64,000 nt of DNA from positions 1 through 64,000 of the forward strand of contig NZ_JACHGW010000006.1 of the NCBI RefSeq assembly GCF_014202505.1, in the 5' to 3' direction. Below the pieces are notes generated by a model. It had not been told where the DNA came from and did not search any database. It saw nothing but the letters and a program-made list of their open reading frames with translations. This DNA comes from Armatimonas rosea. Lineage in GTDB: Bacteria; Armatimonadota; Armatimonadia; Armatimonadales; Armatimonadaceae. Both the position numbers and the translations under genes were made by a program. Below are positions 29,493-36,930 of this stretch, piece after piece. Every line of letters starts with the position of its first letter. The stretch's first letter is position 1.

Positions 29493-30116
29493 ATGTCCCA
29501 CCGTGCCTTTGACCCGTCGGCGATGGCGATCCCGGATGCCTACAAGCTCCTCAATGTCTGTGTCTCGCCGCGCCCGATTGCCTTTGTCTCGACCCTCTCG
29601 CCCGAGGGCAAGCCAAATCTCGCGCCGTTCTCGTACTTCATGGCGGGTGGGGCCAATCCGCCTTCGGTGACCATCTCGCCGCTGAACAACCGCCACGGGG
29701 AGCCCAAGGACACGCTCGTCAATATCGAGGCGACCGGGGAGTACACGATCTCGATCGTGACCTACGGGATTCGCGAGAAGATGAACCAGGCGTCGTTGGA
29801 GTACCCCTACGGCGTGAGTGAGTGGGAAGAAGCGGGCTTTACCCCAGGCCCGACCGAGGTGGTCAAGCCTGCCCGCGTGCTCGAGTCGCCGCTGGCGATG
29901 GAGTGCAAGCTCTTTCAGGTAGTTAAGCACGGGCCAGGGCCGCTCTCCGCCAACTACATTATCGGGGAGGTGGTGCGGTACTGGATCGACGAAGCCTTAC
30001 TTGACGAAAATGGGGTGGTGGACCCGACTCAGGTGGACTATATCGCTCGAATGAGCGGTGACTGGTACACCCGCGCCACTCCCACGGCGATGTTTGAGCT
30101 AGCACGCCCGACCTGA
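29493..30116 (+). CDS. Flavin reductase-like FMN-binding protein
   Basis: The 207-residue protein belongs to the flavin-reductase-like split-barrel family. The N-terminal block MAIPDAYKLLNVCVSPRPIAFVSTLSPEGKPNLAPFSYF-type sequence (residues about 10-48) is the characteristic FMN-phosphate-binding region. It is followed by PKDTLVNIEATGEYTISIV and later AMECKLFQVV and NYIIGEVVRYWI. It probably binds FMN and reduces flavins or small substrates with NAD(P)H. Its last codons (MFELARPT) are duplicated at 31181, within the neighbouring propeller-gene array. Confidence 0.88.
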   Translation: MSHRAFDPSAMAIPDAYKLLNVCVSPRPIAFVSTLSPEGKPNLAPFSYFMAGGANPPSVTISPLNNRHGEPKDTLVNIEATGEYTISIVTYGIREKMNQASLEYPYGVSEWEEAGFTPGPTEVVKPARVLESPLAMECKLFQVVKHGPGPLSANYIIGEVVRYWIDEALLDENGVVDPTQVDYIARMSGDWYTRATPTAMFELARPT

Positions 30117-30137
30117 CTGCCGTAAAATGGGACATGC
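30089..30137 (+). repeat. 49-bp direct repeat, copy 1
   Basis: It covers the last eight codons of the flavin reductase gene, the TAAAAT promoter box (30123-30128) and the ATG of the first propeller gene. It matches 31181-31229 at 47 of 49 positions. The duplicated unit is therefore a gene end plus a ready-made promoter and start. Confidence 0.9.
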
Positions 30138-31138
30138 GCCCGACGACAACGCTGCTGCCCCGTCCTTTACGCCATCTGGTACGCGCCACGGCGCTGTGGA
30201 CGACTTTTCTCCTTCCCGTACTGGTGGTTGGGGGCGTGGTTGCCCGCCGTACCCCACGACAACCAGTGTCCGCTCCTGTCCTTTTCTGCCCGCTTCCGAG
30301 CGATGCTGATTTTGAGGGGGAGTTTTCCTTCTTTGGCTCGGAGCAAGTCGTCCTCACAGCCACGGACGCCGCTGTTCCGCGGCACGCACAAGGAAGTGGC
30401 GGGCTTGCTTTCAATACAAGAACCGGCAAAAGAGAGGCAATCGAGATCCGCCTTTCAAGCCCGATGCTGCTCATGGGGCGGCAGGAGTTTGCCCCGTTGG
30501 TACGTTCCTGGGACGACAAGGTCAGAGCCCGCTACATCGACAAGCCCGGCGTGGCTCGCTGGATGTTCGGGCATCCCGATCACCCCGACTCGCCCCCTGT
30601 CGCCCGAGAGGTGCCTGGTGTCCGACTCACCAAGGCGATTCTCTCTCCAAAAGGCCGCTATCTGGTCGGCTGGGGAGATGCCGGGGCGGACGGTAAACAG
30701 CTGGTGATCTGGGAACACGGTGTCCACCCGCCAAGGATACTGAAGGGGCTGGGAGGCAAGTCACTCAATGTCCTCCGCTTCTCCCCCGATGAGCGCTATC
30801 TTCTTATCTCGCATCGGGAAGCGGAGCTTAGCGGGGAGCTCGCCTGCCGGGAGCTGGCGACTGGAAAGCTGTGCTGGCTCGTGAGACTCCCCGCCACGGG
30901 AGGCAAGAACCTCCAAGTGGAGGATATGACGGTCTCGTGGGACAGCAAGTATGTCGCCACGGCTTTCGCGCAGGGACTGGCGATCCTCGACATTAAGACA
31001 GGGGCACCGCTGTGGCAGCAGCCGCGCCTGAATGGGTTCTATCCCCGTGCCATGCTCCAGTTCTCCCCCGATAGCCGCTTGCTGGGCGAGTCTCAGCAGG
31101 ATGGGGTCGCGCTCTGGGACTGGCAGAAAGGAAAGTAG
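30134..31138 (+). CDS. Membrane-anchored beta-propeller protein, paralogue 1
   Basis: The 334-residue protein has a basic N-terminus, one membrane helix (ATALWTTFLLPVLVVGGVVA, residues about 18-37) and an extracytoplasmic WD40/PQQ-like propeller. Degenerate blades end in phrases such as AILSPKGRYLVGWG, LRFSPDERYLLISH, VSWDSKYVATAFAQGLAILD and LQFSPDSRLLGESQ. The chain closes with GVALWDWQKGK, shared with paralogues 2 and 3. No enzyme motif is visible. It is the first gene of a five-paralogue array. TAAAAT lies 5 nt before the ATG. Function is unknown; surface binding or sensing is an inference. Confidence 0.75.
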   Translation: MRPTTTLLPRPLRHLVRATALWTTFLLPVLVVGGVVARRTPRQPVSAPVLFCPLPSDADFEGEFSFFGSEQVVLTATDAAVPRHAQGSGGLAFNTRTGKREAIEIRLSSPMLLMGRQEFAPLVRSWDDKVRARYIDKPGVARWMFGHPDHPDSPPVAREVPGVRLTKAILSPKGRYLVGWGDAGADGKQLVIWEHGVHPPRILKGLGGKSLNVLRFSPDERYLLISHREAELSGELACRELATGKLCWLVRLPATGGKNLQVEDMTVSWDSKYVATAFAQGLAILDIKTGAPLWQQPRLNGFYPRAMLQFSPDSRLLGESQQDGVALWDWQKGK

Positions 31139-31139
31139 G

Positions 31140-31208
31140 ATGCACACTCGCTCTCTCACCCCACGACAGCGCCGGGCAATGATGTTTGAGCTAGCGCGCC
31201 CGACCTGA
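31140..31208 (+). pseudogene. Truncated sixth propeller gene (start only)
   Basis: ATG 31140 opens MHTRSLTPRQRRA, which resembles the start of paralogue 3 (MHALTLTRRQQGA) and follows paralogue 1 directly, as paralogue 3 follows paralogue 2. After 13 codons the frame runs into a copy of the flavin reductase gene end (MMFELARPT, stop at 31206-31208). It is a remnant interrupted by the 49-bp duplication. Confidence 0.75.
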
Positions 31209-31229
31209 CTGCCGTAAAATGGAACATGC
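31181..31229 (+). repeat. 49-bp direct repeat, copy 2
   Basis: It is the second copy of 30089-30137, with 2 mismatches. It holds the flavin reductase tail, TAAAAT (31215-31220) and the ATG of paralogue 2. It supplies paralogue 2 with its own promoter 5 nt from the start codon. Confidence 0.9.
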
Positions 31230-31864
31230 AGCCAAGTCTAAGTAGACGTCACAGTAGGGTAGTCGGGCTCTCGATAGGCTTTCTGGTTCCCTTGGTTGCG
31301 ATTGGGTTGTACCAAGGAAACCGGCCTCCCGTGGGCTCGCGTGCCACTCAAAAACTCTTTCCCCGCGATCCTATCCCACAGGCGTATTTCGAGCTCCCCG
31401 ACGGCGCAGACGGTACGTTTGTTTTTACGCGCATGGACACGATTGTCGCTGGTCTCACCAAGCGTCACCCTGACGGTGTTGAGCATGTCTATCCGGAGTT
31501 TCTTCTCTTAAATGGTAAGTTGCAGCGGTATAACTCGGAAGTCGCTCCGCTGTATCCCGCTGTGATCGAGAAAAATAAGGAGCTGATGACAAAAATTCCC
31601 GTTCCTGAAAATATTGCCTCGCTCTTACCTGCTGGAGCGACACGTGAGTGCCTGGCGCTATCTTGGGATAAGGTCTATGTCGCAATGGGCTATACAGATG
31701 GTATCGTCATCTGGGAGAGCGCGACCGGGAAGTTGCGGAGGCAAATCAAGCGCCACAATGGCTTCCCGCAGTACTCCTATCTGCAGTTCTCCTCCGATGG
31801 TCAGCTCCTCGGGGATGCCTATGTCGATGGGATTGCCCTCTGGGACTGGCAGAAAGGGACATAG
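31226..31864 (+). CDS. Membrane-anchored propeller-related protein, paralogue 2 (short)
   Basis: The 212-residue protein has a membrane helix (VVGLSIGFLVPLVAIGLYQG, residues about 12-31) and a shortened extracytoplasmic part. The last two blades are clear: CLALSWDKVYVAMGYTDGIVIWESATGKL and LQFSSDGQLLGDAYVDGIALWDWQKGT, in which GIALWDWQKGT matches the ends of paralogues 1 and 3. About 120 residues are missing relative to those, so it may be an internally deleted copy. It starts from the duplicated promoter. The DNA is somewhat more AT-rich than its neighbours. Confidence 0.7.
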   Translation: MQPSLSRRHSRVVGLSIGFLVPLVAIGLYQGNRPPVGSRATQKLFPRDPIPQAYFELPDGADGTFVFTRMDTIVAGLTKRHPDGVEHVYPEFLLLNGKLQRYNSEVAPLYPAVIEKNKELMTKIPVPENIASLLPAGATRECLALSWDKVYVAMGYTDGIVIWESATGKLRRQIKRHNGFPQYSYLQFSSDGQLLGDAYVDGIALWDWQKGT

Positions 31865-31865
31865 A

Positions 31866-32870
31866 TTGCACGCTCTAACCCTCACACGACGGCAACAGGG
31901 GGCGCTGGTTCCTCTGGGAATCGGGCTCCTGCTCCCCGCGGTTGCGACGGCACTCTACGGCCCCCAGGTCTATCAGCGAGAGCAGATTGCCCGTGGACTC
32001 GCCCCCGCCGTTCGGCTTCGGCTTCCCTCCGGCAAGTCGGCCAAGTCGTTTTCCTTTGACCTTGAGACCCACCGTGTCGAGGTGGAGGCAGTCCGCGCAG
32101 AAACCGCGTCCGAGGATGAGAACCTGAGAGTACGGCACCCTAGGACCGACCTTTTTGTCTTTGACCCGGCGACGGGTGCACTGCTGGCGGAGGGGAGCGG
32201 GAGCACGGCCCGCAGCGGTGAGTTCTCCGACGAGCATGCGATCTCCGCGGACAGGCAATTTATCGCAAAGCCCACCGATCTCTACCTCGACCATGGCTGG
32301 AAGGTGCTGGATCCGAGGGGAAAGGAGCTCAGCACGACTCCCTCCAACCTCTCGCTCTCCCGTGTCCTTCTCTCGCCGCACGGGAAGTACCTGCTGGGCT
32401 GGGGACAGACACACTCGCCGCGCCAGGGACGGGGAGAGGGGATGTACTTTCTGACCGGCCCCCAGAGAGACAATCCCCGGCCGATGCGGGACCTCAGCCG
32501 GTGGGACCTGATCGCCTTCACGCCCGATGAGACCGGGCTGATGGTGGTGTCTCCTGCGCCCCAGGGGCTTTGGTCACGCCTTCGCTACATAGGCCTCTCG
32601 ACCACTGCGAGCTGGGAGTGCACGCTTCCTCAAGAGTCTCTCCCCCCGCAGGCTCTGACTGTCTCCCCTGATGGGCGCTTTGTCGCGGTTGCCTCCCAAA
32701 ATAGCCTTCTTGTCTTTGATGCCCACAACGGGCTACTACTACGGACAATTCCCCGGACCGCGGGCTGGGCGAGTCACTGCATCGTTCGCTTCTCCCCCGA
32801 GAGCCGCTGGCTGGGGGACCTGACACCCGAGGGTGTCGACCTCTGGGACTGGCAAAAACACAGACCCTGA
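31866..32870 (+). CDS. Membrane-anchored beta-propeller protein, paralogue 3
   Basis: A TTG at 31866 is the likely start (334 residues), one base after the stop of paralogue 2. An open frame extends upstream but lies inside paralogue 2. The membrane helix is ALVPLGIGLLLPAVATALYG (residues about 13-32). Propeller blades include VLLSPHGKYLLGWG, IAFTPDETGLMVVSP, LTVSPDGRFVAVASQNSLLV and VRFSPESRWLGDLT, ending GVDLWDWQKHRP. Its length equals that of paralogue 1. The weak TTG and lack of spacing imply coupling to paralogue 2. Confidence 0.7.
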   Translation: MHALTLTRRQQGALVPLGIGLLLPAVATALYGPQVYQREQIARGLAPAVRLRLPSGKSAKSFSFDLETHRVEVEAVRAETASEDENLRVRHPRTDLFVFDPATGALLAEGSGSTARSGEFSDEHAISADRQFIAKPTDLYLDHGWKVLDPRGKELSTTPSNLSLSRVLLSPHGKYLLGWGQTHSPRQGRGEGMYFLTGPQRDNPRPMRDLSRWDLIAFTPDETGLMVVSPAPQGLWSRLRYIGLSTTASWECTLPQESLPPQALTVSPDGRFVAVASQNSLLVFDAHNGLLLRTIPRTAGWASHCIVRFSPESRWLGDLTPEGVDLWDWQKHRP

Positions 32871-32880
32871 AAACACAACG

Positions 32881-34203
32881 ATGCGACTGAAGAACACTCC
32901 CGCTCCTCGTAGCCAGGCCGCACCGACGCAGTACAGTACGGCACCCGCACCAACGGCATCTACGACCGCCACGACGCCCTCGGTGACTGCGAGCGTCGCA
33001 GCTCCCGTGCAGACGCGTCCAGGCCGACGGCGGTGGCGACGGCTTGGGCTCTTGGCATGCTTTCTTACCCCGCTTGCCGTGCTCGGGACCAAGGTGCCAC
33101 GCCTTCTGGCAGCTCAGCAGCAGCAAGCGTTTCTTCGGAGCCCCGAGGCACGCGAGTCATTGCTCGTCCCGCCCGGCTGGGATGCCGTCACGAGCTCCTT
33201 TTCCCCGGATGGCAAGACCCTTGCGGTGGTGGTAAGCAAGCCGTATCCCAAGTCCTACGCGGGGCTCATGCTGCCCGCGTATGTCAGTTTCTGGGACTGG
33301 AAAGCCCGTAAGGAGCTAGGGACGAGAGTGCCGCTCATCAGCTGGGCGACCCCCTTGGTCTGGAGCAACAAGGGTAAGGAGCTGATCCTGCCGGGGGCCA
33401 AGGCGAGGCGGGTCGAGGTTGCCACGGGTAAGGTTACGCCTCTCGCACCCAATGTCGCCTTTGCCACCGACGGCAAGCTCATGATCCGTAACCGTCCTGA
33501 AGAGGCGGTCTCCAAGTGGGTTCAAGGGGATCGGGTCGCACGGCGCATGTTCACGTCGTTCACCGTGGCGGATGTCGGCACCGGAAAAGCGCTTGGCCGC
33601 CTCAAGCTTCCGCCGTCGTTCCTTGCGGATGAGGGGCTCGTCTCAACACAGCGCTGGAGCTTCTCGCCCGACCACCGTCACGTCGCCTTGGCGATGCTGA
33701 ATTTTGGGACGCGCAACACAACCTCATCAACGAGCCTCGTGTACTGGGAGCGGGGGCGAGAGGCTCCGCTCTGGACCGCGGAGATCGAGGACTCCGCACC
33801 GGTCGCCTTCAACGCAGACGGGACACGGATTTACTCCATTGTGCGTGATCTGACGACAACCCGGGATAGCCGCGGCATGACATCGGGCTACAACGGGCCA
33901 CACTTAGTCTGTTTCGATACAAAGACGGGACAGCAGGTGTGGAAAGCGCGCGCCGATGAAGCCCTCTCGGTGTGGAGTAGCGAGCTTCTGGTGACGGGGG
34001 ACAGTGTCCTGGTGACCACGCCCAGCGGGATCCGGCTCTACGACCCCCATGTCCAGTATTGGGGGCCATTGCTGCCGCTGACCGCCTTTGGTTCCACGGG
34101 GTACAGTGGCGTCCCCCGAGTCGCACTCTCGCCCGATGGCACGACCATCGCGGAGCGGTACGAGTTTGGGATTCGGCTACGGCCCCTCGTGGGAGGTGAC
34201 TAA
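32881..34203 (+). CDS. Membrane-anchored beta-propeller protein, paralogue 4
   Basis: ATG 32881 gives 440 residues. The N-terminal 45 residues are a Thr/Ala/Pro/Ser-rich cytoplasmic tail ending in a basic patch (RPGRRRWRRLG). One membrane helix follows (LLACFLTPLAVLGTKVPRLLA) and then a propeller with blades such as SSFSPDGKTLAVVV, WSFSPDHRHVALAML, VAFNADGTRIYSIV and VALSPDGTTIAERY. A tryptophan/aspartate phrase FWDWKARKELG recalls the WDWQK of paralogues 1-3. The stop TAA at 34201-34203 directly abuts the next start. Confidence 0.72.
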   Translation: MRLKNTPAPRSQAAPTQYSTAPAPTASTTATTPSVTASVAAPVQTRPGRRRWRRLGLLACFLTPLAVLGTKVPRLLAAQQQQAFLRSPEARESLLVPPGWDAVTSSFSPDGKTLAVVVSKPYPKSYAGLMLPAYVSFWDWKARKELGTRVPLISWATPLVWSNKGKELILPGAKARRVEVATGKVTPLAPNVAFATDGKLMIRNRPEEAVSKWVQGDRVARRMFTSFTVADVGTGKALGRLKLPPSFLADEGLVSTQRWSFSPDHRHVALAMLNFGTRNTTSSTSLVYWERGREAPLWTAEIEDSAPVAFNADGTRIYSIVRDLTTTRDSRGMTSGYNGPHLVCFDTKTGQQVWKARADEALSVWSSELLVTGDSVLVTTPSGIRLYDPHVQYWGPLLPLTAFGSTGYSGVPRVALSPDGTTIAERYEFGIRLRPLVGGD

Positions 34204-35514
34204 GTGCGCCTGACCACAAACACGCCCACACCGACCACGCAAACACAACCCACAAGCCAGCACATCACGGCCCCTACACCTGTCGTGGCCGCTTCAACGG
34301 TGCTGGTGACGACGGGCGCTCGGACGCGTCGGAGGCGCAGCAGTAGTGGGCATCTCGTGCTCTGGGGCACGTTGCTGGTGCCGGTGGTGGCACTTGGGCT
34401 GGCGCTGAGACCCGCCGTGCAAACACAGCTGGTTGAGCGGCGGCTTGCGCCGCGCCAGCTCCTGGCCGTGTTGCCTGGCACGGAGACAAATGGGATGGCG
34501 CTGAGCGCGAATGGTCGCTATATGGCGGTGCGGTCTCTCAAGCTAGAACGTGGAAGTGGTGAGGGGATTGCATGGCTCAACCAGACCCAGGTCTACGACA
34601 CAGGCACAGGCAAACAACTCGGAACGGTTCGCACTCCTGATGGCACCTCTTCTATGGTCGGAATCACCGCGGATGGCACACGGATAGTGACAGCGGAGTA
34701 CGGTAACGCGAAGAAAAACCAGGGGCAGCTGAGCTGGTGGGATGTGGCTAGCGGCAAGCCGATTAATACGGTCACCTACCCTAGTACCACCGCTGAGAAC
34801 CTGCTCTCCGTCGCGGGAACGGAGCTTCTGGAGTCTCAGGACGGGGTGCTGACGTTGCGGAGTACGGAGACGGGAGCACTGCTGGCTCGCTTTCCCATCC
34901 CCTCAACTCTAGCGGGGCAGCCGACCAATCCACGCTGCTACCAGCTCGCGCTCTCCCCCAATTCTCAGTGGGTCGCGGCGCGTGTCTCCCTCAAAAACAG
35001 CACAGGGCTCTACGGTCTCGTGGGCGCGGAGCTGGTGCTCTGGAAGCGCGGCGAGCAAAAGCCCCGCTGGAGTTTCCCCGTTCGCGAGCATAACGCGGCG
35101 AACACGGTCATGGTCGCCAATGATGGCACGGTGCTAGCAACGGTCGAGAAGGTAATACAAGACGCCAGGCAATTCATCAATCTCAATGATGCCATGTATC
35201 GGGGAGTGATCTGCCTGGACGCAACTACAGGCAAGGAGCGCTGGTTTATCCCGCACGGTAAGGGCTTCACGGGGCTTACGTATGCCCTCGCAATCGACCC
35301 GGCACGAAACCGGGTGGCCCTGCGCTACGGGGAGCGCTTTATCGGGCTACATCGCCTGACGGATGGGAGCCTGATCTCCACGATTGATACCCGGCAGAAA
35401 ATCAGTAATGGAGGGGTTTTGGGAGAGCGGGTGCGCTTCTCCGACGATGGCAAGACCCTGTATGACCGACAAGTCGGTGGGATTGCCGTCTGGAGCCTGG
35501 AGGGGCTGAAGTGA
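34204..35514 (+). CDS. Membrane-anchored beta-propeller protein, paralogue 5
   Basis: It starts with GTG 34204 immediately after the stop of paralogue 4 (436 residues). Like paralogue 4 it has a long Thr/Pro/Gln-rich tail of about 40 residues, a basic patch (RTRRRRSSSG) and one helix (LVLWGTLLVPVVALGLALRP). Blades include MALSANGRYMAVRSL, VGITADGTRIVTAEYG, LALSPNSQWVAARVSL and VRFSDDGKTLYDRQVGGIAVW, closing with a WSLEGLK variant of the terminal motif. Its stop TGA overlaps the GTG of the YaeQ-like gene. Confidence 0.72.
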   Translation: MRLTTNTPTPTTQTQPTSQHITAPTPVVAASTVLVTTGARTRRRRSSSGHLVLWGTLLVPVVALGLALRPAVQTQLVERRLAPRQLLAVLPGTETNGMALSANGRYMAVRSLKLERGSGEGIAWLNQTQVYDTGTGKQLGTVRTPDGTSSMVGITADGTRIVTAEYGNAKKNQGQLSWWDVASGKPINTVTYPSTTAENLLSVAGTELLESQDGVLTLRSTETGALLARFPIPSTLAGQPTNPRCYQLALSPNSQWVAARVSLKNSTGLYGLVGAELVLWKRGEQKPRWSFPVREHNAANTVMVANDGTVLATVEKVIQDARQFINLNDAMYRGVICLDATTGKERWFIPHGKGFTGLTYALAIDPARNRVALRYGERFIGLHRLTDGSLISTIDTRQKISNGGVLGERVRFSDDGKTLYDRQVGGIAVWSLEGLK

Positions 35515-36026
35515 AGTACAGCTTCACGCTCCTCGAAGACGGCGAGCGTGAGAAGCTGATCCTGGAGAGTGGCGGGGACCTTCCGCGCCACGTCGTGCTG
35601 AAGCTGCTGGCCTATCTCCTCTACCGAAAACAGCACGCGCTGGAGATCGAGAAGGGGGTAGGGCAGCGCCACAAGCCGGACTTGGTCGCGCAAAACCCCG
35701 TCACGGGGCAGGTTCAGCTCTGGATCGACTGTGGCCAGATCGAGACCGATCGGCTGGGGCGCATTGTTGCCAAGAACCGCCACGCGGAGGTAGTCGTGGT
35801 GAAGGCAACCGCGCGTGAGGCCGAGCGCTACGCGGCCGTGGCGGCCAGAGATGTCACGGGGCACGCGACGGTTCTCGGCTTCGACGACGGCTTCACGGAG
35901 CGTTTTGTGGAGCTGCTACGCGGCACCAACACCGTTGAGGTCGTGTGCTTGGAGGAGACGATCCGTATTGTGCTCAACGGCGAGGCGCTGGAGAGTGCTA
36001 GGCAAGCCTGCTCTTGCCGGGCGTGA
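35511..36026 (+). CDS. YaeQ-like protein (PD-(D/E)XK nuclease fold)
   Basis: The 171-residue protein resembles the YaeQ family (PF07152), small proteins with a restriction-nuclease-like core whose activity is unproven. Visible features are LKLLAYLLYRKQHALEIEKG and RHKPDLVAQNPVTGQVQLWIDCGQIETDRL, where PDL...WIDCGQ matches the usual PDVW...WIEVG core (acidic residues at about 64 and 79). No membrane segment is present. GTG 35511 overlaps the stop of paralogue 5 (GTGA), so it is translationally tied to the propeller array. The 3' end overlaps the convergent TolB-like gene by 29 bp. Confidence 0.65.
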   Translation: MKYSFTLLEDGEREKLILESGGDLPRHVVLKLLAYLLYRKQHALEIEKGVGQRHKPDLVAQNPVTGQVQLWIDCGQIETDRLGRIVAKNRHAEVVVVKATAREAERYAAVAARDVTGHATVLGFDDGFTERFVELLRGTNTVEVVCLEETIRIVLNGEALESARQACSCRA

Positions 36027-36930
36027 GAAACACGGCGAGCGCGCTCAAGCAGCCCCGCCGCGATGATTTTCCATCTTTCCAGCTGGGGGGATCACTAAAG
36101 AGCGTGTCATCGGCGAGGCACTCCTGGCCGATGCCATCGGTCTGGATGCGCCAGAGGCTGGAGTCGTTGAGGAAGTAGATCGTCTTGCCATCCGGGGAGA
36201 AGGCCGGGTTGCGCGGGCTCGTCCCCGATTTTTTAAAGACCCCGAGTGCGCGAGCCGGTGCGCCCGGTGCGTCCGCGTAGAACAGCTCGTGGCGGAACTC
36301 CTGCGGGTCGGCGATAAAGGTAAAGCCCGTCCCGACCGGAGCGAAGCGCGGGTTGCAGACCGCGCCGCCCTTGGTGTAGAGGTAGACCGGGGCGGCCTTG
36401 GTACGCAGGGAGACCGTGGCAATCCCATTGCGCGTGTTCTCGTCTTCGTAGGCCCAGAACGCGACGGTCTGGTTGTCCAGTGCGACATGCGGGTTCATGG
36501 CGCAGCGGTAGTCCTGGCCGGAGTGCGTCGTAAAGTCTGTGCCATCGATTCGGACCGAGGCAATACCACCTGCCGTATGATTCGGGCCGATCCAGTGGGA
36601 GTACATAAAGACAATGCGCGAGCCGTCTGGGGTGACCGTGGGAGCACCGTGAAAGTGGCGCGACTTTGACAGGAGTGGGGTGTTTTCGCCACTGCCCACC
36701 TCAACGCGCCAAAGCGCGCTCTGGTCGTCGTAGAGCTTCTCGGTGCGGGAGTAGATCACCGCGGAGCCATCGGGGGTGAAGGCGGGATGGTAGGCGTAGA
36801 TTCCCGGCGCGGTGAGGGGCTTCACCTCCCGCGCGACCAGGTCAAAGAGAAACAGCCCCAGGTGCTTACCGCCCCAGGGGGAGAAGACAAGCCAGCGGCC
36901 GTCGGGGGAGAGATCAAATGTCCGGCTCAT
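35998..36930 (-). CDS. TolB-like WD40/PD40 beta-propeller protein
   Basis: The 310-residue protein has repeated PD40 motifs: LSPDGRWLVFSPWGGKHLGL, PAFTPDGSAVIYSRTEKLYD, PTVTPDGSRIVFMYSHWIG and PAFSPDGKTIYFLNDSSLW. This is typical of TolB-type six-bladed propellers. No signal peptide is seen at ATG 36930, unusual for TolB-like proteins and perhaps a sign that it is cytoplasmic. It lies 20 bp downstream of the Gfo/Idh/MocA gene on the same strand and probably shares its transcript. The extreme C-terminus overlaps the YaeQ-like gene. Confidence 0.85.
   Translation of the reverse strand: MSRTFDLSPDGRWLVFSPWGGKHLGLFLFDLVAREVKPLTAPGIYAYHPAFTPDGSAVIYSRTEKLYDDQSALWRVEVGSGENTPLLSKSRHFHGAPTVTPDGSRIVFMYSHWIGPNHTAGGIASVRIDGTDFTTHSGQDYRCAMNPHVALDNQTVAFWAYEDENTRNGIATVSLRTKAAPVYLYTKGGAVCNPRFAPVGTGFTFIADPQEFRHELFYADAPGAPARALGVFKKSGTSPRNPAFSPDGKTIYFLNDSSLWRIQTDGIGQECLADDTLFSDPPSWKDGKSSRRGCLSALAVFLTPGKSRLA

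Follow-up and report, generated by a model that had tools for sequence, protein, structure and literature searches.

Tandem genes for membrane-anchored WD40/PQQ-like propellers, ending in a YaeQ-like gene, form a probable lineage-specific family in Armatimonas rosea

We analysed a 64,000-nt stretch of the Armatimonas rosea genome (the window) in which five tandem genes for paralogous, membrane-anchored WD40/PQQ-like propeller proteins (P1 to P5) are followed by a YaeQ-like gene (Table 1). The probable explanation, in our judgement, is a lineage-specific tandem family of anchored, outward-facing binding or scaffold propellers, joined in the operon by a YaeQ-like gene with a separate distribution. 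The points in its favour are the grouping of the paralogues, the structural model of P5 and its WD40 matches, the lack of full-length P5 relatives, a second propeller array in the same genome, the scars of duplication, and the gene neighbourhoods of the YaeQ relatives.

Table 1. Features of the propeller array and its flanks (identities are to the same-genus genome G001)
Feature	Position	Strand	Evidence or size
Flavin-reductase-like gene, conserved left flank of variable block	29493-30116	+	PF01613 E 1e-20; 92% aa identity
Direct repeat (49 bp), copy 1: last codons of flavin-reductase gene and TAAAAT element just ahead of P1 ATG	30089-30137	+	
P1, membrane-anchored WD40/PQQ-like propeller	30134-31138	+	334 aa
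Possible leftover 5' end of a P3-like gene, truncated by repeat copy 2	31140-31184	+	Inferred from sequence
49-bp direct repeat copy 2, ahead of P2	31181-31229	+	96% identical to copy 1
P2, paralogue shortened by an internal deletion to about four blades at most	31226-31864	+	212 aa; profile matches
P3, anchored propeller paralogue, TTG start	31866-32870	+	334 aa
P4, anchored propeller paralogue, Thr/Pro/Ala-rich basic tail	32881-34203	+	440 aa
P5, anchored propeller paralogue, GTG start after GGAGGTGA	34204-35514	+	436 aa
YaeQ-like PD-(D/E)XK-fold gene, GTG start	35511-36026	+	171 aa; PF07152 E 7e-14
PD40 propeller gene, conserved right flank of variable block	35998-36930	-	PF07676 E 4e-18; 88% aa identity

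The original prediction of five consecutive plus-strand genes was borne out, and the genes (30134-35514) encode true paralogues. Intergenic distances from P1 to the YaeQ-like gene were, in order, 87, 1, 10, 0, and -4 bp, in agreement with the predicted spacing of 0-10 bp everywhere except at a duplicated promoter and with a GTGA-type overlap at the end. The start of the YaeQ-like gene overlaps the P5 stop by 4 bp, and its Shine-Dalgarno-like sequence, GGAGGGG, sits within P5.

BLASTP divided the five proteins into two groups above chance, P1-P3 and P4-P5. Within the first, E-values were 1e-19 (P1/P3), 6e-19 (P1/P2), and 1e-12 (P2/P3); P4 and P5 matched each other at 4e-9 over 403 aa. Similarity between the groups was weak (P2/P5 4e-5, P1/P4 6e-4). 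Each protein carries a single hydrophobic N-terminal segment with a Leu-x-Pro common to all five and basic residues ahead of it. Of the plan foreseen for the family, the one membrane helix and the basic tail hold for every member, whereas the Thr/Pro-rich tail holds for P4 and P5 only, where about 50 residues are 63-67% Thr, Pro, Ser, Gln, or Ala. The charge difference across the helix is slight in P1-P3, so the membrane orientation is not firm. P1-P3 do end in LWDWQK, as had been noted; such a motif commonly forms the final strand of a WD-type blade and is unremarkable in a last blade.

The propeller fold was assessed with structure models and profile searches. The AlphaFold2 model of P5 (mean pLDDT 69.8) has a helix at residues 51-67 followed by a propeller spanning about 80-436; local pLDDT is mostly 60-90. 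Foldseek matched the model to WD40-type structures at E about 1e-14, with 1185 matches at E <= 0.001. For P1, AlphaFold2 and Foldseek gave a confident propeller region at residues 160-334 only, that is, in the C-terminal half; the model of the N-terminal half was not confident. A profile built from the five proteins matched WD40 structures strongly, in the last blades. Four-stranded blades are accordingly found in P5 by model and Foldseek and in P1 over residues 160-334, and extend to P3 and P4 via paralogy. P2 matched profile positions 7-89 and 205-337 only; with positions 90-204 absent (about 115, about a third of the profile), P2 alone cannot form a full propeller. Judged from its sequence, it would make up no more than about half a propeller, and it may have arisen by deletion. 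The expected propeller was thus recovered in P5 and in the C-terminal half of P1, whereas P2 proved too short for a full ring. Pfam scores lay below the curated cut-offs (PQQ_2 18.6-24 bits vs. 27.6; WD40 14.6 vs. 27), and the NCBIfam search gave sub-threshold matches only. We therefore regard the propeller fold as supported and do not claim Pfam WD40 or PQQ_2 membership.

The presumed duplicated promoter region turned out to be the 49-bp direct repeat. Its core has two exact copies in the whole genome, both in the array, and it was rejected as a genome-wide regulatory element on that ground. Just ahead of repeat copy 2, a short frame, MHTRSLTPRQRRAM, resembles the P3 start, LHALTLTRRQQGAL. 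Repeat and putative remnant together would fit a segmental duplication within the array. In front of both P1 and P2, about five bases separate the end of the TAAAAT element from the ATG (30123-30134 and 31215-31226), a spacing that suggests leaderless transcripts. Across the window, TANNNT occurred at the same distance from the start in 9 of 44 long ORFs, compared to 0-4 at shifted positions.

The array site is variable within the genus. In G001, both flanking genes are kept and the whole block from P1 to the YaeQ-like gene is absent; the site holds one unrelated minus-strand membrane protein gene (388 aa, L052:1700-2866) that has neither a Pfam match nor a homologue in the A. rosea genome. 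A promoter-like stretch after the flavin reductase is conserved (TGCCGTAGAGTG vs. TGCCGTAAAATG). It is accompanied by a short frame beginning MRLKTTP, which resembles P4 (MRLKNTP), although 132 of 5000 shuffles (2.6%) scored as well. Taken together, the conserved stretch and the P4-like start hint at loss of an array gene in G001. At the other end of the block, the last codons of the YaeQ-like gene (35998-36026) are antisense to the 3' end of the PD40 gene, and the C-terminal tail that they encode is therefore not common to the relatives. This segment is likely the junction of the variable block.

Searches farther afield found no full-length P5 relative in 60 relatives or in a GTDB-wide pattern scan. 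Propeller-profile matches elsewhere in the phylum were general WD40/PQQ proteins, covered mainly in the C-terminal blades. An orthologous array in relatives was rejected, the best profile match in a genome of the same family (G006) being a soluble general WD40 protein.

These observations bear on a second explanation, a decaying paralogue cluster in which function is confined to some genes (e.g., P4 and P5) and the remaining copies are disappearing. It would account for a P2 without a third of the fold, for the possible P3-start remnant, and for an array gone from G001 with a possible P4-like start left behind. However, every frame of the block is open across 5.9 kb. The GC content at third codon positions (GC3) of the array frames (0.60-0.74) is somewhat under that of the flavin reductase and YaeQ genes (0.81-0.82), yet still coding-like. 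We consider decay unlikely, if worth keeping in mind.

A second array, Q1-Q3, lies outside the window about 100 kb from P1-P5 (C6:137798-141173; L071:1299-4674). It consists of three genes in a row, separated by 5 and 2 bp, for proteins of 379, 371, and 370 aa, each with a short tail, a single N-terminal helix, and a WD40/PQQ-like propeller. The array is preceded by an M28 peptidase gene, includes no YaeQ gene, and has no counterpart in G001. A T4-type RNA ligase gene (PF09511; L073:11178-12296, C6:141177-142295) is convergent with its end. Without a YaeQ gene, the second array indicates that this lineage tends to form tandem anchored propellers and that these do not need YaeQ. Weak PQQ_2/BamB-type matches in P1, P4, P5, and the second array would be in keeping with a housekeeping role in envelope assembly or docking, as proteins of a BamB-like or PQQ-like type. 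We find such a role quite improbable, as the propellers, unlike a housekeeping gene, are not conserved even within the genus.

The YaeQ-like protein scored 52.3 bits against PF07152 (curated cut-off 25), which upheld its assignment to the PD-(D/E)XK fold; with the models and Foldseek results, both proposed families, anchored propellers and YaeQ fold, are supported. E47, P56-D57-L58, and D73 do not vary between this protein and four relatives; these residues and the PDL and LWIDxGQ motifs align with the solved structure 2g3w. In this fold, E47, D57, and D73 would be the catalytic residues. The YaeQ subfamily was present in five of 291 genomes of the phylum, A. rosea included (4/290 others). The GTDB-wide scan returned ten loci of the subfamily and extended it to Elusimicrobia, Verrucomicrobia, and a Halodesulfovibrio bin. 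Viral origin was rejected, there being no relatives in viral contigs. In two genomes (G004 and G006), the YaeQ-like gene and the end of an ABC exporter gene overlap; its neighbours are different in two others (G008 and G061).

The original prediction had joined propellers and YaeQ in a sensor/effector system and had staked it on their adjacency in relatives. A propeller-profile match was found near the YaeQ relatives at none of the ten loci (up to 7 kb on each side; some contigs were shorter). These relatives are few, several of them on short contigs, and the propellers offer no orthologous array for a co-occurrence test. Since no checkable relative has YaeQ beside such propellers, the proposed system is not supported, and the phylum and GTDB scans and neighbourhood profiles led us to reject a conserved one. 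PADLOC defence models gave no match at E <= 0.01 for the ten proteins searched, and an anti-phage defence system was rejected on this result. Our literature search returned no paper on a propeller-YaeQ architecture and little on YaeQ function.

In its specific form, the sensor/effector unit would have propellers that bind different envelope ligands and a YaeQ-like protein that acts as a signal-triggered nuclease, for example in phage defence or self-recognition. The 4-base overlap with the Shine-Dalgarno-like sequence inside P5, the retained catalytic-type residues, and the variability of the entire block between congeners are all compatible with it. It is nonetheless very unlikely, given YaeQ relatives that never adjoin such propellers, a PADLOC search without a match, a second array without YaeQ, and six proteins in which Pfam found no intermediate signalling domain. 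The joint absence of propellers and YaeQ from G001 between the same flanks does count against our preferred explanation; together with the co-expression of P5 and YaeQ implied by the gene overlap, it would also fit a functional unit. No relative carries an orthologous propeller array, so YaeQ and the propellers may still be partners in this genome alone. A genome-specific envelope recognition unit, with variable anchored propellers presenting ligands and a membrane-near YaeQ-like nuclease responding, nevertheless strikes us as extremely improbable. A propeller-YaeQ mechanism is based on one adjacency, seen nowhere else examined.

Under the lineage-specific family that we prefer, tandem duplication would have given rise to a set of single-pass inner-membrane proteins, each with a short basic cytoplasmic tail, a signal-anchor helix, and a WD40/PQQ-like propeller that presumably faces outward. 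The propellers would most likely work outside the cytoplasm as modules for binding or scaffolding, with binding surfaces that most likely diverge fast after duplication; P2 would be a partly deleted copy. The YaeQ-like gene, of nuclease fold, would have arrived separately to sit at the operon end, where it is probably translationally coupled to P5. This Armatimonadota genome, then, expands membrane-anchored propeller genes as short tandem arrays whose turnover is seen within a genus. The encoded proteins are, on that account, candidates for binding proteins that face the surface and evolve fast. The arrays reveal no new mechanism and have the look of gene duplication of the ordinary, lineage-specific kind. 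A YaeQ link, if true, would place a nuclease-fold family whose function is unproven in a biological context.

Comparison with known families places both components. The YaeQ-like protein shares its PDL and LWIDxGQ motifs and an above-cut-off score with the YaeQ family PF07152 (solved structures 2g3w of Xanthomonas and 7tcb), whereas its subfamily has an MKYTF-type start and gene neighbourhoods of its own. Q1-Q3 follow the same tandem, near-zero-gap, one-anchor propeller plan as P1-P5 but belong to a different subfamily, being 26-42% identical to one another and weakly similar to P1. With bacterial WD40/PQQ-like propellers (PF13360 PQQ_2, PF00400 WD40, and the PkwA WD40 domain, 5yzv), P1-P5 have the blade pattern SPDG...LWD in common. 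They differ in having a lone N-terminal anchor with no kinase or other catalytic domain, in being tandemly duplicated, and in scoring under the Pfam curated cut-offs.
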